Shown here in pieces: positions 27,242 to 37,089 of a stretch of 44,187 nt of DNA (its first letter is position 1; the number at the start of each line of letters is the position of its first letter). The DNA is taken from positions 1 through 44,187 of the forward strand of contig NZ_JAAHHT010000058.1 in assembly GCF_010672085.1 (NCBI RefSeq), in the 5' to 3' direction. The translations under genes were made by a program, and so were the position numbers. The notes under the pieces were generated by a model, which did not search any database, was not told the origin of the DNA, and saw only the letters and a program-made list of their open reading frames with translations. The stretch comes from Okeania sp. SIO3I5 (GTDB taxonomy: Bacteria; Cyanobacteriota; Cyanobacteriia; Cyanobacteriales; Microcoleaceae).

Positions 27242-28465
27242 ATGAAAATTTCAGATCGAAAAAACTCAGCTACACCTCAAATAGGTGGTTATGTAGTCGC
27301 TATAGCCTTAAGTACAGGTCTAACTTTAACCGCCATACGCACTTTTCCCAGAGTATTTCTGCCCACAGACAACAGACAAACTACGGAAAATCAACCTCAG
27401 CTAGCAGTAAATACAAATACCCCTAGAATCGCAAAAGTCCCCGTGAACGCTGATAGCTTTGTTGCCACTGCAGTTGAGAAAATAGGACCCGCTGTTGTGC
27501 GCATAGATACAGAACGAACAGTAGAACGTAACTTACCTAATTTTTTTAACGATCCATCTTTCCGTCGCTTTTTTGGAGAGAGTTTTCCCCAGTTTCCCAA
27601 AGAGTATCAACAACGGGGACAAGGTTCGGGATTTATTACTGATAGCAGTGGAATTATTTTGACTAATGCTCATGTTGTTAAAGGTGCAGATACAGTTACA
27701 GTCAAGCTGAAAGATGGGCGTAGTTTTGAAGGAGAAGTTAGAGGTTTGGATGAACCTTCCGATCTAGCAGTAATCAAAATTGATGGAGAAAACTTGCCTG
27801 TTGCACCTTTAGGAAATTCTGAACGGGTAAAAGTTGGGGATTGGGCGATCGCTGTCGGAAATCCCCTAGGATTAGATAATACAGTTACTTTGGGTATTGT
27901 CAGTTCCCTAAACCGTGCCAGTTCGGAAGTTGGTATTCCTGATAAACGTCTTGATTTTATTCAAACTGATGCCGCCATTAATCCCGGTAACTCTGGGGGT
28001 CCGTTGTTAAATTCCCAGGGAGAAGTGATTGGTATTAATACAGCTATTCGTGCAGATGGGCAAGGTATTGGGTTTGCGATACCTATGGATCGAGCAAAGG
28101 TGATTCAAGAAAAATTAGTAAAAGGGGAAAGTATACCTCATCCTTATATTGGGGTGCGGATGATTACATTGACTCCAGAAATCATTCAGAAGTTAAATGA
28201 AAATCCTAATTCTTTAATACAGTTGCCTGAAATTGATGGTGTTTTAATCGCACAGATAATTTCTGGTAGTCCAGCAGCTAAAGGTGGTTTACGACGTGGG
28301 GATGTGATTACAGAAATTGATGGTAAAAAAATTACCAGTGCTGAAGAATTACAGAATATAGTTCAGGAAAGTCAAATTGGTAAACCTCTAAAAATTTCGG
28401 TCAAACGTGGTTTAGAAACTAAAATATTGTCTGTAAGTCCAGGAGAATTACAGGATGCTAGTTAG
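27242..28465 (+). CDS. HtrA/Deg-family serine protease with PDZ domain (HhoA/HhoB type)
   Basis: A 407-aa protein: N-terminal membrane anchor or signal (residues about 15-35, [20 protein letters not shown]), a trypsin-like domain and one C-terminal PDZ domain ([20 protein letters not shown] to EELQNIVQ). Catalytic triad: His144 in LTNAHVV, Asp174 in [11 protein letters not shown] and Ser251 in [10 protein letters not shown]. This is the cyanobacterial HhoA/HhoB/HtrA architecture, acting in the periplasm/lumen on damaged proteins under light and heat stress. Which of the three paralogues is not decidable by eye. Length and motifs are complete. Confidence 0.94.
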
Positions 28466-28951
28466 GGTTTGCTGAAAAAGTCTTTTTTAAGGAGTGGGGG
28501 ATTGGGGGATTGGGGGATTGGGGGAGTTGGGGAGTTGGGGAGTTGGGGAGTGGAGGAGTGGAGGAGTGGGGGATAACAATAAAAGTGCCTCTCCTGGAGA
28601 TAGGTTGTCACCTTCGAGAGCGCGATTTCAAGTTGTCTCCAGGTTTGTCTGTAGGTTTTGGTGTATCAAATTGAAAGTAGTCATGTTTGTCTGGTAATAT
28701 CTAATCCCAATAATTAGTTATTGTAGATCATTGCGACTGGAACTCTTGGAAGGAAGAAATCTCAGGGGTAGTGCAAAATTGCTTGCTTCCTATTGTCGCT
28801 GAGGACTTTTTATATCAAATCCAGTAGCATTGCTACAATTCACGCAACCTAGGTAGGGGTTTGGAAACGAAACCCCTACAATTGCAGGAGTTTACAGAGT
28901 CAATTGTTACTTTTGCTGGTTTGGATAGCGATCGCTCCCTGCCCATCTCTC
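28466..28951. repeat. Element end, G-rich minisatellite and unassigned spacer
   Basis: GGGTTTGCTGAAAAAGTC at 28466-28483 matches the end of the MITE at 14560-14802, but a partner end is not evident. 28494-28572 is a G-rich tandem array (GGGGGATT, GGGGAGTT, GGAGGAGT) whose open plus-strand frame is low-complexity. The rest, including an ATATCAAATCC copy at 28812, shows no gene. Confidence 0.65.
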
Positions 28952-29174
28952 ATATCAAATCCGCTTGTTTCAGAGTGTTATCAGAAACCGGGTTTGTGGG
29001 AGGTCAACGGTAAGGACGTTTAGCTAAAGCACAACTCCGTTAACGCTACGCGACATGGAATAGGAGCATTTCTTATATGAAAACGCATTAATGCTCAAGC
29101 AACGTCCGTACAAGAGCATTTGATACAAACCCATTTTCTCTGCTTTTCTATACTAATACTACCGGATTTGATAT
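28952..29174. mobile_element. 223-bp ATATCAAATCCG-ended element containing a nested GGACGTT element
   Basis: Perfect 12-bp inverted ends ATATCAAATCCG (28952-28963) and CGGATTTGATAT (29163-29174). Inside lie an AAACCGGGTTT segment (28984-28994) and the complete GGACGTT element at 29014-29107. Noncoding; the order suggests successive insertions. Confidence 0.7.
29014..29107. mobile_element. GGACGTT-ended dispersed repeat, copy 2 (inverted relative to copy 1)
   Basis: GGACGTT (29014-29020) and AACGTCC (29101-29107) bound it. Read on the minus strand it shares AATGCGTTTTC, CATGTCGC and GTTGTGCTTTAGCTAAACGT with 15917-16031, with a short internal deletion. Confidence 0.7.
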
Positions 29175-29275
29175 CAACTCTTCAACCAAAGAGTTCGCTC
29201 TAGTGGTACAGAGCATTACTGCTATTTTAGCTTGAGTAGTGTACTGCCTCACCCAACCTACAAAAAAACTATTTA

Positions 29276-29415
29276 ACTCAAATCGTCAGGATCGATACCC
29301 AACTCTCGCAGTTTTGCTGCCAAGCGCTCCTTTTGTTGTTTAGCTACTCAAATCGTCAGGATCGATACCCAACTCTCGCAGTTTTGCTGCCAAGCGCTCC
29401 TTTTGTTGTTTAGCT
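29276..29415. repeat. Exact 70-bp tandem duplication at the 3' end of the Uma2 gene
   Basis: 29276-29345 and 29346-29415 are identical. The outer copy contains the presumed ancestral stop (reading ...IDPDDLS then TAA at 29274-29276); the duplication moved a new TAA to 29340, adding one Ser. The outer copy is now untranslated. Confidence 0.9.
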
Positions 29416-30197
29416 ACTGTGGCCTCCTGTTCAGCATTGGTAGCTCGTTGTTCAGCATTGGTAGCTCGTTGTTCGGCATTGGTAGCTTGTTGTTTAGCTA
29501 CTGCTGCCTCCTCTTGAGCTTTTGCTTCCTTCTCTTCTATCGTCGGTATCAAATCTCCTTCCGGAGTCATCCACCGCAACCAAAGTCTATCTCTCTTCTT
29601 GTAACTACCCTGCCACAAACCCAGACTGAGTTCTACCTCCGGAACCGACAAACGCCCCTCATTCAACTCTGCTCTTTGGTAGCGATCGCCTACCAAATGA
29701 AACGCCTTAATTTCATTAGTATAGCGACTGAAAGTAACATAATAAGGTACTCGGAGAATCCTCTCGTAAACTTCCCATTTAGTAGGAGGTTTTCCCTTTT
29801 CTGCTATTGTCTCTCCCAAATCTTCATCTTCTGTACCCGGAGATAATAACTCGACTACTACCAACGGGTTAATTTTTTCGTCCCAAACTACATAACTCAA
29901 GCGCATATCCGATTGTTCATACCACCTTGGCACTCCCACAACTGCAAACCAGTCTGGGCGTTTGTACCATTTAGGATGTTTGACATCGTAGTAGAGATTC
30001 ATATCAACGCCACAAAATAAAAGATCGGGAGACCAGTTGCGAGGTTGAAAAGTTTGGTCTAAAAGTTGAGGTTGAAAGTAGTGAAATTGGTCTGGCAAAC
30101 CAGGTTCCTCCGGGTTTTCGCTTGGTAAGTCGTACATGGTAGGCAAAGTTGACTTTGCTGGAAGTGGTGGTTCATGTTGAACGGATATATTTGTCAT
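29340..30197 (-). CDS. Uma2-family (DUF820) nuclease-fold protein
   Basis: A 285-aa protein. Residues about 40-205 are the DUF820/Uma2 domain, with LFCGVDMNLYYD, WFAVVGVPRWYEQ, PLVVVELLSPGTEDEDLG and WEVYERILRVPYYVTFSRYT, a PD-(D/E)XK-like fold with expected acidic and Lys residues. Residues about 220-275 form a coiled coil with three ATNAEQR heptads followed by AEQEATVAKQQ, ending AKLRELGIDPDDLSS. Dozens of such proteins occur per cyanobacterial genome; biochemical role unknown. The heptad array and the duplicated 3' end show active slippage. A PXXCGVD-type metal site is inferred, not proven. Confidence 0.88.
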   Translation of the reverse strand: MTNISVQHEPPLPAKSTLPTMYDLPSENPEEPGLPDQFHYFQPQLLDQTFQPRNWSPDLLFCGVDMNLYYDVKHPKWYKRPDWFAVVGVPRWYEQSDMRLSYVVWDEKINPLVVVELLSPGTEDEDLGETIAEKGKPPTKWEVYERILRVPYYVTFSRYTNEIKAFHLVGDRYQRAELNEGRLSVPEVELSLGLWQGSYKKRDRLWLRWMTPEGDLIPTIEEKEAKAQEEAAVAKQQATNAEQRATNAEQRATNAEQEATVAKQQKERLAAKLRELGIDPDDLSS

Positions 30198-30225
30198 ATT
30201 ATTGCTCTCGACATAGTTTTGATAG

Positions 30226-30322
30226 TTAGGACTTACGCAGAAACCGGGTTTATGCAGGAAATTTTGCGATTTTAATAATCAGAGCAGTAAACCCGGTTTC
30301 TTGTTTGGGTGTGTAAGTCATA
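30226..30322. mobile_element. CAGGACTTACGCA-family element carrying AACCGGGTTT hairpin, copy A
   Basis: AGGACTTACGCA (30228-30239) at left and GTGTAAGTCAT at right (30311-30321) bound a segment with AAACCGGGTTTAT and AAACCCGGTTTC arms. It lies just upstream of the Uma2 gene. Confidence 0.65.
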
Positions 30323-30425
30323 ATTGTTTTACAAGTGACTCTATCTGCGCGTACTTTTTCCCATGATTACAGAATAACACACTATTTTCATAAATGGAAA
30401 TAGAGTTGAAAATTTTTGATAAATC

Positions 30426-30516
30426 TAGGAGTTACGCAGAAACCGGGTTTATCGACGAAATTTCCAAATTTGAATAATCAGGGTAATCAACCCGGTTTAT
30501 TGTTTAGGATTTACTC
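30426..30516. mobile_element. Diverged copy B of the same element
   Basis: AGGAGTTACGCAGAAACCGGG (first 19 of these at about 30427) and AACCCGGTTTATTGTTTAGG near 30490 mirror copy A, including TTTGAATAATCAGGG against TTTTAATAATCAGAG. Ends are more diverged. Noncoding, just before the broken antitoxin gene. Confidence 0.6.
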
Positions 30517-30570
30517 AAAATAATGAGATAATAGGAAGCATTCCCAAAACATTTATGTTCACAGAATGAG

Positions 30571-30888
30571 ATGACAAAATATCTATATCCCCTACTGGTT
30601 TTAGAACCAGAACAGTACGATACCCTACTCCAGTTAGCGACTCAAAAGCATCAGACACTCTCTGAAGTTGCTGTGGAAGTAGTGCGTCTGGGATTAGAAA
30701 CCCTGAAACAAAGAAGCGATGGAATCTCTGGTTAAAGCGATCGCTAACCTCAAAAAGCTTTAGAATGTTTAAATTCCCTCCGAGCAGAAATCCAAGAAAC
30801 TCATGGCATCTATTCTGGCGATCTGGTTGCGGAAGTTAGAACCGAACGAGAAGAGCAAATTGAGAAAATAATTACAGGGGAACTATGA
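30571..30888 (+). pseudogene. Broken antitoxin of a VapB-like toxin-antitoxin pair
   Basis: The first frame reads MTKYLYPLLVLEPEQYDTLL, then QLATQKHQTLSEVAVEVVRL and GLETLKQRSDGISG before TAA at 30733. The middle continues in the second frame (LVKAIANLKK, about 30729-30760) and then returns to the first (KALECLNSLRAEIQETHGIY, then SGDLVAEVRTEREEQIEKII to TGA at 30886). Two opposite-phase indels thus disrupt an otherwise complete antitoxin of about 105 aa; the family pairs with PIN-domain toxins. The stop overlaps the toxin ATG by ATGA at 30885-30888, the normal coupling of such operons. Confidence 0.8.
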
Positions 30889-31313
30889 AAATTGTACCGG
30901 ACTCAAATATAATTTTGGCTTTGGCGATCGCCCTACCCTATACATCAGTTTCTTTGGCAAAGACGCAGCAGTGGCAAGAAGAAAATGCCGAATTAATAGT
31001 TCCTAGTTTGTGGAGCTAAGAAATAGTTTCCAGTCTCCGCAAGGGAATGGCGATCGGCAGAATATCTTCCGAACAAGCGATCGCTGCACTCCAATCTATT
31101 TTGGCTATGGGAATCACAGAAATCCTACCTACACTTAGATTACATCAGCTTGCTCTAGAATGGTCTGTTCGACTCAACCAAACCGTTGCTTATGATGCTG
31201 CTTACTTAGCTTTGGCAGAATCACAACAAGCACATTTTTGGACTGCAGATAGGCGACTTGTGGATGCTGCTAATAACTGCGGAGCATCCTGGGTACATCA
31301 TATTAACGAGTGA
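30885..31313 (+). pseudogene. PIN-domain (VapC-like) toxin interrupted by one in-frame TAA
   Basis: Full frame: MKIVPDSNIILALAIALPYT (the first PIN Asp is in PDSN), then ELIVPSLWS, TAA at 31017-31019, EIVSSLRKGMAIGRISSEQA and on to AYDAAYLALAESQQAHFWTA with DRRLVDA, the other conserved acidic residues. The stop replaces a residue in the LW-x-x-EIVS segment and is a one-base change from TAT/TAC. Translation could restart at ATG 31047 but would lack the first active-site Asp, so toxicity should be lost. Full length about 142 aa. Confidence 0.82.
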
Positions 31314-31334
31314 CAAACTGGGTAATTAATTATC

Positions 31335-31400
31335 AGGACTTTACGCAGAAATACCATACCTAGTAGGGGCAAACAACCGTTCGCCCCTACAAGCGGTGTA
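31335..31400. repeat. CAGGACTTTACGCA end and GTAGGGGC hairpin
   Basis: ATCAGGACTTTACGCAG near 31335-31350 is a diverged element end; GTAGGGGC (31363-31370) and GCCCCTAC (31383-31390) form an 8-bp inverted repeat. The right end is missing. Confidence 0.55.
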
Positions 31401-31411
31401 TCAATATCTTA

Positions 31412-31777
31412 TTATTTGCTCAATGGTAAGTATTCAAGTCTGTCTTGATATTCATTGAGAAAGGAAACTCCCGCAATAATGATTAACTCTGTGAGAATTT
31501 CACCAATATTTTTGGATGGATCGATGATAAAAATCCCTGGTACATGGTGACCTTCTGTAAGATGATCTGCCAGGTGTTTAGGCATAGATTTTCGATTGTT
31601 TGTCACTAAAACGAAATTATGAGTCTCACACCAAATTAAAATCTCTGGATCAAGAGTTCCTTTGGGAGGAGCGTCTGGATCGCCAATCATTCTGACAACA
31701 AGATCGGGTGCTTGACGCACCAGTTGGGTCCGGTACAGGGGGGCGATATGCTCATCAAGTAAATATTGAATCGTCAT
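31412..31777 (-). CDS. DUF5615 PIN-like toxin
   Basis: A 121-aa protein. It starts MTIQYLLDEHIAPLYRTQL, where LDEH is the first acidic cluster of DUF5615 (a Mut7-C/PIN-like nuclease fold). LDPEILIWCETHNFVLVTNN with RKSMPKHLADH supplies later acidic and polar residues, and GIFIIDPSKNIGEILTELI closes the fold. It overlaps the upstream DUF433 gene by 4 bp (31774-31777), the usual translational coupling of a DUF433/DUF5615 toxin-antitoxin pair. Predicted ribonuclease restrained by its partner; both genes look intact. Confidence 0.85.
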   Translation of the reverse strand: MTIQYLLDEHIAPLYRTQLVRQAPDLVVRMIGDPDAPPKGTLDPEILIWCETHNFVLVTNNRKSMPKHLADHLTEGHHVPGIFIIDPSKNIGEILTELIIIAGVSFLNEYQDRLEYLPLSK

Positions 31778-32118
31778 ACAGTGTTCCCTGACTCAATATA
31801 CTCTTGCTGAACATCTATTGCCAATTGCCGAAACCTCTGCCGTGCTGGGGAAGGATTACGCATTTGCTCTTCCCGTTGTTGGCGACAAAACTCTAGCCAG
31901 TCAGCTAAGTATGTTCTGACTTCCTCTTTATTATGTAAATAATAGAGGATGGTGGCGTAAACATCTTCCAGGGTAATAGTCTGAAATTGTTCAGCAATTT
32001 CTTCGGGAGTTTTCGCACGATAAATGTATTCATAGAGAACACTTTCGATACCAATGCGGCTACCTTTGATGCGGATATCATCAGGCGCTAGGAAATTGAA
32101 GTAGTCTTGGATTTGCAT
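31774..32118 (-). CDS. DUF433 antitoxin
   Basis: A 114-aa protein. DYFNFLAPDDIRIKGSRIGI is the conserved DUF433 beginning (usually IRIKGTRIGIE), followed by ESVLYEYIYRAKTPEEIAEQ, FQTITLEDVYATILYYLHN, a winged-helix-like DNA-binding module, and a helical tail (residues about 75-114) for toxin binding. Encoded upstream of and overlapping the DUF5615 toxin. Its first gene neighbour upstream is a truncated VapC, so this pair replaced or followed insertion into an older vapBC operon. Confidence 0.88.
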   Translation of the reverse strand: MQIQDYFNFLAPDDIRIKGSRIGIESVLYEYIYRAKTPEEIAEQFQTITLEDVYATILYYLHNKEEVRTYLADWLEFCRQQREEQMRNPSPARQRFRQLAIDVQQEYIESGNTV

Positions 32119-32149
32119 CGCTCTTTCTGTTAATAGTGAGTTGTATGAT

Positions 32150-32257
32150 TATGCGTAATTCCTGATTTTCTCTAAGAATTAAGAGTGCTTTCTGCCACTG
32201 AAGTTCATCATCTCTAGTCAAATAGCGAACTAGAATATTGGTATCAACTCCAATCAA
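32150..32257 (-). pseudogene. Truncated VapC (N-terminal PIN fragment)
   Basis: Starting at TTG 32257, preceded by AGGAGG at the right spacing, the frame reads LIGVDTNILVRYLTRDDELQ and WQKALLILRENQELRI, the typical first 36 residues of a VapC PIN domain with the catalytic Asp in VDTN. Homology then stops and the reading frame runs into the DUF433 gene; about 100 residues are missing. It overlaps the end of the AbrB-type antitoxin. Confidence 0.82.
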
Positions 32258-32489
32258 TAGCTGCCTCCTGAATCGCGTTTTCCATATCCTCAATGGTTGC
32301 TTTCTCAATTCCAGGATAATGTAGAATACCCGACAAGTCTTCCACAGAGAATTTCAGAGGAATTATTTTAACCTGTCCTTGTTCATCAATAACAAATTCT
32401 ATTTTACTTCCTGCATTCAGTTTAAGGTAGTCCCTTATTTCTTCAGGAATAGTTATTTGCCCTTGATCGCTAACTATTGTACTTGCCAT
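32244..32489 (-). CDS. AbrB/MazE-type (SpoVT-AbrB) antitoxin, VapB-like
   Basis: An 81-aa protein. The N-terminal half is a swapped-hairpin AbrB domain: STIVSDQGQITIPEEIRDYL then KLNAGSKIEFVIDEQGQVKI. The C-terminal half (LKFSVEDLSGILHYPGIEKA, TIEDMENAIQEAAIDWS) is the toxin-binding tail. It overlaps the start of its truncated VapC partner, so it is now an orphan antitoxin, possibly still able to repress its own promoter or neutralise related toxins. The sequence appears intact. Confidence 0.87.
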   Translation of the reverse strand: MASTIVSDQGQITIPEEIRDYLKLNAGSKIEFVIDEQGQVKIIPLKFSVEDLSGILHYPGIEKATIEDMENAIQEAAIDWS

Positions 32490-32538
32490 TACTATTATTT
32501 ACTAAATTTACTTAATTTTAATGGATATTTATAAAAAT

Positions 32539-32740
32539 TTACGGCATAATCTCAAAAAATTGACAATGCTTAGGTCGAAATAGCTGAAAATCTCTTCTAT
32601 CCAAAGTCAAGACTTTCGTATTTCCAAACGTTCTGCTATTGCCATGACGCTAGCATCTACACTCATCAATTCTACTGTCTTGATATATCTCCAAAATTTC
32701 TGCCACTCGGAACAAATCTTCTGGAGTTAAAGCTAATATC
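32539..32740 (-). pseudogene. Frameshifted C-terminal remnant of another PIN/VapC toxin
   Basis: Read right to left in three frames: LALTPEDLFRVAEILEIYQD, then VDASVMAIAERL (the third PIN Asp region), then TKVLTLDRRDFQLFRPKHC and QFFEIMP to a stop at 32539. Together this is the familiar VapC C-terminus. At least two frameshifts separate the pieces and the N-terminal half is absent, cut off where the XRE gene ends. Confidence 0.8.
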
Positions 32741-33467
32741 AGAAATCGACTATTCTAATAAGAAGAAAGCTTTTCCGAAACTTATATTTTTCAACAACCT
32801 CTAAAACCTCTAATCCTGATTTTTTTCTAATAGTTTGACTCCATTCTAATCGATCAAATTCTTCTAAGTTTATCTGCTCTAGTTCAAAATTTTTCAGTAA
32901 ATCAGAAATTTCTAACCATCTTGGATTATTAGAATTTTCTAAAATATTTTCATCTGTATAAATTGTATAACTTTTCGTTATTTTAATTTCTCTTGTCCAT
33001 AAAATATCTAGTTTTCTATGGTGAAATTTAGTGCTTTCATCTCGTTTATATTTGATTTTTTGAACCAAACCATCAATATCATTTTCTGAATTATTTATCT
33101 CTGAAAAAATATATTTTGTGGGTGATATTTTTTCTACAAGCTGCACTTCATTTTTTGGAGTATTTTCAGAGAGTGATCGCTCCTGTTCCTCTTGATTAAA
33201 ACTATTACCATCATTAGCAAATAATCTTGTTAATTCAGCCATTTCATCATCTACAGACAATCCACTTTTTTTTGCAAAAGCTTCAGCTATTTGTTTAATT
33301 TTCTCAGATCCAGGACTTCTTATATATCCATTAACTACCTTTGAAATATAGTCTTTATCTAAACCACTTTCCCTTGACAGTTCATTTTGAGATTTAAAGC
33401 GTTTAGTTTCAAATAATAGCTCTTTAAATTTTTCTCCTACCTTTTTAAACTTTTTAGGTCTTGTCAT
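32739..33467 (-). CDS. XRE-family regulator with uncharacterised C-terminal domain
   Basis: A 242-aa protein. Residues about 8-75 form a helix-turn-helix domain: FKELLFETKRFKSQNELSRE, SGLDKDYISKVVNGYIRSPG and SEKIKQIAEAFAKKSGLSVD. The polar linker (90-115) leads to a C-terminal domain of about 125 residues (EISPTKYIFSEI region to LLIRIVDF) that I do not recognise; it is mixed alpha/beta with many charged residues. It might sense a ligand or bind a partner. The upstream intergenic region holds a cluster of GTTCAAC sites and a divergent small gene, the layout of an autoregulated switch. Low GC and absence of HIP1 sites in the gene hint at transfer. Confidence 0.75.
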   Translation of the reverse strand: MTRPKKFKKVGEKFKELLFETKRFKSQNELSRESGLDKDYISKVVNGYIRSPGSEKIKQIAEAFAKKSGLSVDDEMAELTRLFANDGNSFNQEEQERSLSENTPKNEVQLVEKISPTKYIFSEINNSENDIDGLVQKIKYKRDESTKFHHRKLDILWTREIKITKSYTIYTDENILENSNNPRWLEISDLLKNFELEQINLEEFDRLEWSQTIRKKSGLEVLEVVEKYKFRKSFLLIRIVDF

Positions 33468-33507
33468 TCTTGATTTTTACAAAATTTTCTCTATTCTAAA
33501 CTAAAAC

Positions 33508-33569
33508 TTGTTCAACTCTTGTTCAACCGTTGCACGTTCAACCAGTTGAACATATACAACTTGTGCAAC
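33508..33569. promoter_or_regulatory. Operator cluster of GTTCAAC half-sites
   Basis: GTTCAAC occurs at 33510-33516, 33521-33527 and 33536-33542. The last pairs with GTTGAAC (33545-33551) as a perfect 7-2-7 inverted repeat. The first two are 11 bp apart, one helical turn. GTTGCAC and GTGCAAC variants lie at 33529 and 33563. The position between divergent genes makes the XRE protein the likely binder. Confidence 0.65.
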
Positions 33570-33656
33570 TCTTGGCAAAACAACACAAACAAATCAAACT
33601 AGAAAGTAAGGATTAATCCTAAACTCACTAATCAAAAATAAAGGATTTGAAAAACT

Positions 33657-33866
33657 ATGATTATTAGACAATTCGGCATTTTTTTCGGATACCAAGATAT
33701 CCATACTGAAAACCTTGCAGAAAATCAAACTTCCCAACCAAAAGTTAGTCTTCTAACACAACTGAAAAAAACCCTTAAGGCTATTCTTAATGCTAAAAAT
33801 ATGACCATGATTCAACCCTTAACTAATTTAATTCAGCATTGGTTTAGTCAACAAAATGATTTGTGA
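33657..33866 (+). CDS. Small uncharacterised protein (69 aa), divergent from XRE regulator
   Basis: A 69-aa frame starting at ATG 33657, with AAAGGA about ten bases upstream. The N-terminus MIIRQFGIFFGYQDIHTENL is aromatic; residues 30-65 (VSLLTQLKKTLKAILNAKNM and TMIQPLTNLIQHWFSQQNDL) look like amphipathic helices rich in Lys and Leu. No family recognised. Opposite orientation to the XRE gene and shared operators suggest it is the regulated target; roles such as antitoxin, membrane-active peptide or anti-repressor are only possibilities. Confidence 0.5.
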   Translation: MIIRQFGIFFGYQDIHTENLAENQTSQPKVSLLTQLKKTLKAILNAKNMTMIQPLTNLIQHWFSQQNDL

Positions 33867-33893
33867 TTTTTCCCGGTAGGTATTTTGCCTACG

Positions 33894-34057
33894 TTATAAG
33901 AAACCGGGTTTATGGGAGGTAGATGTTAGGTAGTGAGGCATTTAATATCAACCCGGTTTCTGTGGTTTTTTTTCCTTATAAGAAACCGGGTTTATGGGAG
34001 GTAGATATTAGGTAGTGAGGCATTTAATATCAACCCGGTTTCTGTGGTTTTTTTTCT
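33894..34057. repeat. 82-bp tandem duplication of an AACCGGGTTT hairpin element
   Basis: Two copies (starts 33894 and 33976) differ at about one internal base (GATGTTAGG against GATATTAGG). Each has AAACCGGGTTTATGGGAGG at left and AACCCGGTTTCTGTGG plus T8 at right. On the plus strand each could fold as a long hairpin before a T-run and terminate the small gene's transcript. Confidence 0.8.
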
Positions 34058-34087
34058 ATGTTTTTTTTTACTGTTAACTGATAACTG

Positions 34088-34125
34088 AAAAAAAAGTGGA
34101 GGTAAACCTCAGAATACCCCCCACT
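34088..34125 (-). terminator. Probable secA terminator
   Basis: On the minus strand AGTGGGGG pairs with CCTCCACT (one G-U) across a 15-nt loop and is followed by at least seven T (34094-34088). It lies about 150 bp after the secA stop. Confidence 0.6.
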
Positions 34126-34278
34126 CGAAACCATCAATTTTTACCAATTGATAATTGATAATGATTAAAATTTTAAACTTTGAGTAACAAGCAAACTTTT
34201 TGAATGCAAAAGTCTTCAATTTAGTACAAAAGTTAGCAATCAAATAATTATCAATTATCCATTATCCATTAATCAAAA

Positions 34279-37089
34279 CTACACCGTCTCCGCTGCCGCA
34301 GTCTCCACAGCAGGTTGCGGTTGGAACTGGAACATAGAATAAACCACATTCCTCCGAATATCCGTCATCATATCCAAAAACAACTCATAACCCTCACTCT
34401 TATACTCAATCAACGGATCTTTCTGCCCATAACCCCGCAAACCAACCGACTCCCGCAACGCATCCATCTGCTGCAAATGCTCCCGCCACAAAGTATCAAT
34501 CTGCTGCAAAATAAAGAAACGTTCCGCATCCCGCATCAAACCACCACGAATCTGATTCACCTGCGCCTCCTTAATATCATAAGCATTCCTCACTTGCTCG
34601 TGCATAAAAGTCTTAATATCCTCCATCGACAAATCGAACAACTGCTCCGGCGTCAAATCTGCCAACAAATACACAAACTGCTTCACCTTCTCCACCAACT
34701 TATCTAACTCCCACTCTTCCGAAGGCAACTCAGGATTAATATACGCCTCCACAATATCATCCATAGTTTGCTCCGCATACTTAATCACCTGTTCCTTCAA
34801 ATCCCTACCTTCCAATACCCGTCGGCGTTCCGCATAAATCGCCCGACGTTGATTATTCATCACCTCATCATACTCAAACACCTGCTTCCGCATATCATAA
34901 TAATAAGTTTCCACCTTCTTCTGCGCACCTTCCAACGAACGAGTCAACAACCCAGACTCAATTGGCATATCTTCCTCAACCCCAAACGCCTGCATCATTC
35001 CAGCAACACGATCGCCACCAAAAATCCGTAATAAGTTATCTTCCAAACTCAAGAAAAATTTAGTCGAACCAGGGTCACCTTGTCGCCCCGCTCTTCCCCG
35101 CAACTGATTATCAATACGCCGTGACTCGTGGCGCTCAGTACCAATAACGTGCAACCCACCAGATCCTATTACTTGATCGTGTTCCTTCTCTGTGTAAGTT
35201 TCGTATTCTTGGCGAATTAAATTATAAACTTCCCGCAACTTTTGAATAACTGAGTCTTCAGTCGGAGCTTTTTCCGCAGCGATCGCCACCTTATCTTCCA
35301 CCACCAATTCTGGCAGCGCTCTTTCACCCCACTCTTTCACCGCAAAATCTACTGCTGACTTCAACATTCCCTCTGTTTGTGGCGACAACTTAACAGGGAA
35401 TATTTGAGGCGAAACCTTCCAAGTTTTCACCTTTTTCTCAGGACCAAAACCTTTTGCTGAATTAGACTTCTTCGCTCCTGGTATGCGCACCATACCCATA
35501 GCATCATCATCTTCTGGTTTCACAACTCTAGGCATCAGATACTCCCGTAGTTTCAACCTTGCCATATACTCAGCATTTCCACCCAAAATAATATCCGTAC
35601 CTCGACCTGCCATATTCGTGGCAATAGTTACCGCACCACCACGACCTGCTTGTGCCACAATTTCTGATTCCCGCTCCACATTTTCTGGTTTAGCATTCAG
35701 GAGTTGGTGAGGAACCTTCAGTTGACCTAACAAATTAGATAGTAACTCCGATTTTTCCACACTCGTTGTACCTACTAACACCGGGCGACCTTCTTGGTGC
35801 ATATCTGCACATTCTTGAGCGATCGACTTCCATTTTCCTACCTCTGTTTTATAAACCACATCTGATAAATCTTTTCTACCAGTTGGTCTATTAGTAGGTA
35901 CGATCGTTACTTGTAGATTATAAATCTTTTCAAATTCTGTTTCTTCAGTTTTTGCCGTTCCCGTCATTCCCGACAACTTCGGATAAAGCAAAAAGAAATT
36001 CTGATAAGTAATAGTTGCCAGTGTCTGAGTTTCCGGTTGAATATCCACCCTTTCCTTTGCCTCGATCGCCTGATGCAAACCATCACTCCAACGTCGTCCT
36101 GGCATTACCCTACCAGTAAATTCATCAACAATAACAACTTCCTCATCACGCACAATATAGTTAACATCTTTGATAAATAACTCTTTTGCCTTCAAAGCAT
36201 TAAACACAAAATGCGCCCAAGGATCTTCAGGATTATATAAATCTTGTACTCCCAATAATTGTTCTGCTTCGGCAAAACCCTCATCACTCAATAAAACATT
36301 TCTTGCTTTTTCATCTACTTCATAATGTTCATTGTCCTTACTCAAAGCTGCTGCAATTTCTGCTGCCTTAATATACTTTTCACTCGGTCTTTCCACCTGC
36401 CCAGAAATAATTAAAGGAGTTCGTGCCTCATCCACCAATACCGAATCAACTTCGTCAATAGTGCAAAAATTAAATGGACGTTGTACTACTTCATCCATGC
36501 TAGTTGCCATATTATCACGCAAGTAGTCAAATCCAACCTCGCTGTTAGTAGCATAAGTAATGTCGCAGGCATAATTTCTTTTCCGTTCCTCTGGGTTCAT
36601 ACCCTGTTGAATTAACCCCACACTTAAACCCAGAAACCGATGCACTTGTCCCATCCATTCCGCATCCCGTCTCGCCAGGTAGTCATTAACAGTAATAACA
36701 TGAACACCCTTACCTGTTAAACCATTTAAGTATGCTGGCAAAGTAGAAACAAGAGTTTTACCTTCCCCAGTTTTCATTTCTGCGATTTGGCCTTGATGTA
36801 AAATGATGCCCCCCAATAGTTGGACATCAAAGTGTCGCATCCCCAGCACTCGCTTTCCTGCTTCTCGAACCACTGCAAAAGCTTCAGGTAAAATATCTTC
36901 TAATATTTCCTTTTCTTGATCCTTGGTTTTTGCTTTTTCCAGAGCTTGTCTAAATTCTCCCGTTTTTGCCCTCAACTCTTCATCTGAAAGCTTTTGAATA
37001 TCTTCCTCAAGAATATTGATATCTGTCACCCAAGGTTGAAATTTCTTGAGTTTACGTGCGTTGGGGTCTCCTAGCAGTTTTTTGAACAT
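34279..37089 (-). CDS. secA: Preprotein translocase ATPase SecA
   Basis: A 936-aa protein of normal cyanobacterial length. NBD1: [20 protein letters not shown] (Walker A), [22 protein letters not shown] (DEVD Walker B). Preprotein cross-linking domain about 230-370, NBD2 with [35 protein letters not shown], and [20 protein letters not shown] (arginine finger region). The helical scaffold and wing domains follow ([40 protein letters not shown]). The C-terminal zinc-binding tail of E. coli SecA is absent, usual in cyanobacteria. It drives Sec-dependent export across the plasma and thylakoid membranes through SecYEG. ATG at 37089 ([14 protein letters not shown]) is the standard start. Confidence 0.98.

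Follow-up and report, generated by a model that had tools for sequence, protein, structure and literature searches.

A probable broken copy of an autoregulatory XRE-STAND switch beside a conserved candidate operator array in the cyanobacterium Okeania sp. SIO3I5

HTH-STAND regulators and NACHT proteins of bacteria are already known; how NLR-like NTPases of bacteria are silenced is, to our knowledge, largely an open question. In our comparison, the closest tested precedent for the locus described here is XssQ, an HTH-STAND protein of plasmid pSYSM of Synechocystis sp. PCC 6803, which is reported to recognise the site AAGTTXXAC in gel-shift assays and to act as an activator of polysaccharide genes (PMC8205485). 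In the CARD-NLR-like system of Caulobacter (CdxB/lypABC), an XRE repressor keeps the system silent (PMC13236601). Among the open-licence literature matches listed, we recognised no description of the operator reported here, or of an XRE subfamily that keeps a fixed operator across effectors.

The locus lies in a contig of 44,187 nucleotides (NZ_JAAHHT010000058.1), the whole of which was analysed and is called the window below. An earlier note, made from the sequence alone, had reported an XRE regulator gene and a divergent small ORF separated by a cluster of GTTCAAC sites. Both ORFs were found as claimed, with the lengths of 242 and 69 aa, and the candidate operator that they flank is real and conserved, the array being kept across genera (Table 1). 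Among known RNAs, no Rfam family was found in the window. We estimate at about 0.7 the probability that the locus is a broken copy of an autoregulatory XRE-STAND switch of cyanobacteria, the NTPase of which has been lost.

Table 1. Features of the locus, with positions counted from the first letter of the window.
Feature	Position	Strand	Remark
Truncated XRE HTH-NACHT STAND gene, 242-aa ORF	32739..33467	-	HTH and pre-NACHT segment; NTPase and C-terminus gone
XRE helix-turn-helix region, operator-linked subfamily	33216..33461	-	HMM A3, E 8.6e-30 (window among the model's 8 rows)
Pre-NACHT segment, about residues 127-222	32802..33089	-	Matches the stretch before Walker A in 12 NACHT-type ORFs
vapC (PIN toxin) 3' part, frame disrupted	32532..32755	-	95% identity to the intact vapC-like gene of G030; name by eye
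44-bp candidate operator array (half-site, imperfect palindrome, perfect 7-2-7 palindrome)	33509..33552	+	43/44 and 40/44 identity in two other genera
GTTCAAC half-site	33510..33516	+	Motif position
GTTCAAC-C-GTTGCAC, imperfect spacer-1 palindrome	33521..33535	+	Spacer-1 form is the perfect candidate operator in L130, L131 and L140
GTTCAAC-CA-GTTGAAC, perfect palindrome	33536..33551	.	Motif position
Divergent 69-aa ORF	33657..33866	+	Occupies the slot of the relatives' RHH or 88-aa gene

HTH_3 was the only Pfam family above its cut-off in the 242-aa protein (30.5 bits, cut-off 23; E 3.8e-07), no NCBIfam model passed, and the PHROG and PADLOC matches were weak and centred on the HTH (phrog_8, transcription regulators, E 4e-05). 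A Pfam P35 match (E 0.008, below cut-off) was rejected as a chance hit. The AlphaFold2 model of this ORF had a pLDDT of 53.5 and was confident only for about residues 11-80; neither it nor the model of the 69-aa ORF gave a usable fold outside the HTH. Judged as an HTH-NACHT STAND protein, the product has the N-terminal XRE-type HTH and, by genome comparison, the pre-NACHT segment, for which neither Pfam nor NCBIfam has a model scoring above cut-off; the NACHT NTPase with its Walker A and B motifs is absent, the ORF ending at the position of Walker A.

The comparison was made in 98 related genomes, 18 of which, with the genome of the window counted, gave a match at E ≤ 0.001, and it placed the C-terminal half of the protein (about residues 105-228) within larger ORFs. 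In 12 NACHT-type ORFs, the matched stretch stopped shortly before Walker A (3-9 residues in 11 of them, 20 residues in one), and an alignment with nine relatives gave shared blocks, with the 242-aa protein ending at Walker A. One match, L015, was to a coiled-coil ORF and was set aside; the other remaining matches concerned the HTH. The C-terminal domain had been described as unrecognised, which holds for the family libraries, where only the HTH was matched, but not for the genome comparison, where this half corresponds to the pre-NACHT segment of a truncated HTH-NACHT STAND protein; the claim of a novel regulator domain must therefore be given up. At E ≤ 1e-5, the protein had a match in 10 of 388 genomes of the class (own genome counted), and at E ≤ 0.001 the six same-genus genomes contained no relative. 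A plasmid search returned 10 records, every one of them less than 60% identical and none reaching 80% coverage.

The ORF leaves the STAND family at a defined point. In genome G030, an intact vapC-like gene has a 3' part that is 95% identical to positions 32532-32755; the identity stops at 32755, so that the ORF closes with four or five residues of out-of-frame vapC sequence. When 16 relatives were compared with positions 30000-34300 by tblastn, only their N-terminal parts matched, the rest giving E values of 1.1 or worse. On these alignments, the STAND gene is broken near 32755/32756, at the junction with a vapC remnant. Since the ORF both stops at Walker A and runs into that remnant, it is a truncated NACHT gene, a derivative of the HTH-NACHT STAND genes rather than a functional member. 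The locus is probably decaying. A second array-bearing locus with a broken XRE-STAND gene was observed in genome G671 (L137, 1378-1683); there the break is an internal loss that cuts the HTH, and the array and the divergent gene of the 88-aa type are intact.

Without its NTPase, the product would be at most a DNA-binding stub that cannot be induced, and the window is not expected to have a regulated switch; such a residual stub may exist. An alternative that shares this origin and differs in present function is that the truncated protein works as a stand-alone repressor of the 69-aa gene, constitutive and uninducible. The frame stays open as far as the junction, over about 237 codons whose usage is gene-like (0.184 per codon vs 0.183 for the MazE-like antitoxin), and the HTH residues and the array are intact, but a recent truncation would look alike, the other broken copy, L137, has lost part of its HTH, and selection cannot be measured where six same-genus genomes provide no relative at E ≤ 0.001. 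We regard a working repressor at this locus as doubtful.

The heptamer GTTCAAC is found at 33510, 33521, and 33536 on the plus strand and at 33545 on the minus strand, four copies inside 42 bp. The last two form a perfect GTTCAAC-CA-GTTGAAC, in agreement with the 7-2-7 palindrome proposed previously; the phased half-sites proposed together with it are limited to the plus-strand pair at 33510 and 33521, which are 11 bp apart, the next step being 15 bp. Counted across the window, GTTCAAC shows no enrichment (8 copies vs 5.58 expected, with 18 of 100 shuffles reaching 8), so that it is the clustering that counts and not the number. The 300 bp preceding the HTH contain TTCAAC-n1/2-GTTGAA with no mismatch, which not one of 500 Markov shuffles produced, and the exact palindromic 16-mer has a single occurrence in the 10.5-Mb genome. 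A genome-wide regulon was considered and rejected: with one mismatch allowed, the genome gave one extra place, and a reversed-pattern control gave an equal total. Promoters of the sigma-70 type were not above chance (1 found, 0.8 expected), so that control of both promoters by the array is a conjecture.

Aligned with other cyanobacterial genera, the candidate operator array is nearly identical. It matches that of L065 (Microcoleus) at 43 of 44 positions and that of L064 (another genus) at 40 of 44, the best of 2000 shuffles reaching 25 of 44; a 30-codon block of the HTH has 54% DNA identity between the window and L065. By sequence, the nearest full-length proteins are those of L064 (905 aa) and L065 (784 aa), both with HTH_3, NACHT, and NCH2 above the Pfam cut-offs and with the same array upstream (L094 is the same Microcoleus contig as L065). 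Another relative, L066, has HTH_3 and NCH2 above cut-off and weak AAA/NACHT matches, while in L084, L085, and L107 an HTH is followed by a P-loop, as judged by eye. Library matches of L065 were partial (NCBIfam EruA, 41.6 bits with a cut-off of 1000; PADLOC PDC-S60, E 1.9e-11), and solved structures gave HTH chains and weak partial matches only (5irl, E 0.023).

A search for exact matches to the array core, run on genome_contigs (84,980 species), yielded 24 stretches. Each of the four that come from filamentous cyanobacteria (Dendronalium, two Nostoc, Microcoleus) is situated upstream of an XRE-P-loop NTPase gene. The remaining 20, including one in a Gastranaerophilales MAG, and four core matches in viral contigs were set aside on the basis of their flanks, the only part judged, which resemble unrelated coding sequence. 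The core is rare with two mismatches allowed as well (2 of 388 genomes of the class, window counted).

The XRE domain was followed beyond these relatives using the HTH model A3, whose 8 rows include the window. At E ≤ 1e-9, A3 gave 37 matches in 36 of 388 genomes of the order; loci were supplied for 30 of the 37, four of which are model rows, and the palindrome counts exclude the seven matches without a locus. The HTH of the window, itself part of the model, matches A3 and has the palindrome upstream. TTCAAC-n1/2-GTTGAA with at most one mismatch was present within 300 bp upstream in 9 of the 14 loci L129-L142, where 0.03 was expected from shuffles, a count of loci that are not independent, since several are closely related. 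As to the remaining five, there were two mismatches in L129, L141, and L142, and the palindrome was absent (four mismatches) in L134 and L139. The 12 lowest-ranked loci, short XRE genes (L143-L154), yielded 0 of 12 at one mismatch or fewer and 2 of 12 at two. The spacer-1 form was introduced after inspection of the sequences; spacer 2 alone, at the same stringency, gave 6 of 14 vs 0 of 12. In the 330 bp taken downstream from the start of the HTH, none of the 14 loci had it. The palindrome stands about 180-200 bp from the HTH start in L133, L135, L136, L138, and L142, and 24-90 bp from it elsewhere.

Ten C-termini among the 14 loci were scanned, and the proteins proved to differ in what follows the HTH: NB-ARC was above cut-off in seven (L129, L132, L133, L134, L135, L136, L142), GUN4 was found in L130 and L131, and pentapeptide repeats in L140. 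A perfect spacer-1 palindrome was seen upstream of each of the XRE-GUN4 and XRE-pentapeptide genes, and L134 is an NB-ARC locus without the palindrome. Because the palindrome recurs across differing C-termini and differing divergent genes, it tends to go with the XRE domain rather than with the effector or the divergent gene. The GTTCAAC array is likely to be the cognate operator of that domain.

The divergent ATG lies 78-84 nt from the array core in seven relatives (L064, L065, L066, L084, L085, L107, L137), compared with 108 nt in the window; L129, a ninth locus, has a diverged core that the search expression missed and is outside this count, and L067, a more distant relative with a differing arrangement, was left out of the counts. 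What fills the slot varies. L064 and L065 have a divergent 74-aa gene with a ribbon-helix-helix (RHH) match (NikA-like, just above cut-off), a weak likeness to the RelB family (E 1.2e-04, far below cut-off), and, for L065, a best solved-structure match at E 0.36. In L066, L084, L085, L107, and L137, the slot is occupied by a different protein of 88-95 aa, which had no Pfam match (L066), no PHROG match (L066, L107), and no NCBIfam match (L107); by eye, this protein has an HTH-like stretch.

The 69-aa ORF of the window has a codon score beaten by 6 of the 34 window ORFs of 60-90 aa (a set that should include the ORF itself), and 140 of 2000 shuffled versions of the region contain an ATG ORF of its size. 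Its product is 22% identical to the 74-aa RHH protein of L065 over 51 aa, a marginal match with a single-comparison E of 0.002; hhalign against the RHH pair gave a probability of 18%, and no Pfam match was above cut-off. The AlphaFold2 model was poor (pLDDT 56), with two C-terminal helices and no strand. By sequence, an RHH-like partner is a possible identity for this product. No clear homologue was found in 97 other genomes (best outside E 0.00208). For this best match, in G079, no XRE-like ORF was seen by eye in the 3.2 kb inspected, and a same-genus match in G003 turned out to be an alternative frame within a long repetitive ORF. A check on the conservation of the pair had been proposed in the earlier note, with lack of conservation of the small ORF named beforehand as telling against its idea. 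We found that the layout and the slot are kept in the relatives but that the 69-aa protein is not, so that conservation fails for the protein and not for its place.

RHH proteins are able to bind repeated sites, and the RHH proteins of the relatives match mobilisation regulators (NikA-like, just above cut-off). The array could then mainly serve the small divergent protein, or be a partition or iteron-type site, with the XRE gene a mere neighbour. We consider this improbable: the array is kept beside the 88-95-aa type (L084, L085, L107, L066, L137), and the palindrome goes with the XRE subfamily at loci where no RHH gene was seen (L129-L131, L133, L135, L140).

The surroundings of the locus were compared at secA in five same-genus genomes, two of which end too early to judge (in G006, the sixth, the neighbourhood is at the edge of a contig). 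The stretch at 28.5-34.2 kb is missing, short pieces aside, in three same-genus genomes (6-15 kb read) and looks strain-specific. In G003, about 1.4 kb separates an HtrA-like gene from secA, and the two are differently oriented (both names, HtrA and SecA, by eye), which marks the interval between them in the window, 27242-37089, as a rearrangement spot. Toxin-antitoxin genes adjoin the locus, as the earlier note had it, within this apparently strain-specific stretch. The cassette at 31806-32755 is a rearranged version of that of G030, where vapC-like and DUF433 genes adjoin; in the window, an AbrB/MazE-like antitoxin gene and a cut PIN-like gene (32162-32537) stand between the two. At 33898-34053, a unit of about 75 bp is present in two head-to-tail copies, bounded by the inverted repeat GAAACCGGGTT / AACCCGGTTTC with a T run at the end; by eye, it is a terminator or a small mobile repeat.

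Toxin-antitoxin genes nearby, an HTH protein next to a small protein, and the weak antitoxin likeness of the relatives' 74-aa RHH protein would suit another proposal of the earlier note, control resembling that of type II toxin-antitoxin systems, taken here with the XRE protein as antitoxin and repressor and the 69-aa product as toxin or antitoxin-like partner; yet the genes are divergent instead of sharing one operon, the relatives have a large NTPase, and the small partner switches family between loci, so that this proposal goes unsupported and is very unlikely to be correct. Phage immunity, suggested alongside it and taken here as a CI/Cro-like switch of a prophage remnant, has an array between divergent ORFs and weak PHROG transcription-regulator matches (phrog_8) on its side but hardly deserves credence, given that the relatives are STAND NTPases, that inspection by eye of the ORFs at 28-38 kb revealed no phage gene, and that tblastn, which finds close relatives only, detected no relative in viral contigs.

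Returning to the XRE-STAND switch of which the window would hold a broken copy, we propose that the intact STAND protein binds its own array via the XRE domain, as a dimer or oligomer, and, when bound, would set the levels at which it and the divergent gene are expressed. Both divergent genes would most likely be held down at rest; here repression is what we infer, although the precedent, XssQ, is an activator. NTP-driven oligomerisation upon a trigger would change this state and couple sensing to DNA binding.

More tentatively, such loci may belong to a set of cyanobacterial self-regulating sensors in which one XRE “address” domain is swapped among NACHT, NB-ARC, GUN4, and pentapeptide effectors, with one operator serving each of them for control of its own gene and of a divergent one; truncated copies, the present one among them, would persist as uninducible repressors of the shared address. 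If this is true, an NLR-like protein would be its own transcription factor. Sequence is enough to show the DNA-binding domain, its spread over different effectors, and a candidate control site; this putative operator is so short and so well conserved that it could be tested directly by gel shift or reporter. What appears to be a plain XRE regulator may be the stub of an immune-type NTPase.

On pSYSM, we take the NACHT gene beside response regulators to be xssQ. The encoded protein shares 32% identity with L065 across residues 193-781, the NACHT part. Unlike the window copy, it has an HTH unreported by A3, no GTTCAAC array, and an intact NTPase. Within the initial codons of the divergent sugar-transferase gene (L155, 1600-1973) there is a one-mismatch TTCAATCAGTTGAA palindrome, 191 bp upstream of the presumed xssQ, and 2 of 500 shuffles match this one-mismatch level; one AAGTTNNAC site lies between the two genes. 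Three other plasmid HTH-NACHT genes, of the other HTH type, had no palindrome (best 4-5 mismatches). XssQ is like the present family in being a cyanobacterial STAND protein with an N-terminal HTH and DNA binding by gel shift, and its site AAGTTXXAC would, in our own comparison, fit the GTTnnAC core of GTTCAAC, GTTGAAC, and GTTGCAC (PMC8205485).

In CdxB/lypABC, the XRE protein is separate from the NTPase (PMC13236601), whereas in the present family it is fused to it. With the bNACHT anti-phage proteins, the relatives L064 and L065 have the NACHT NTPase in common, a likeness of sequence alone; the window copy differs from them in having no NACHT and an XRE HTH at its N-terminus. The XRE-GUN4 and XRE-pentapeptide proteins (L130, L131, L140) are unlike the window family in lacking an NTPase and in having another C-terminus and other divergent ORFs, but their HTH subfamily and type of candidate operator are those of the window.
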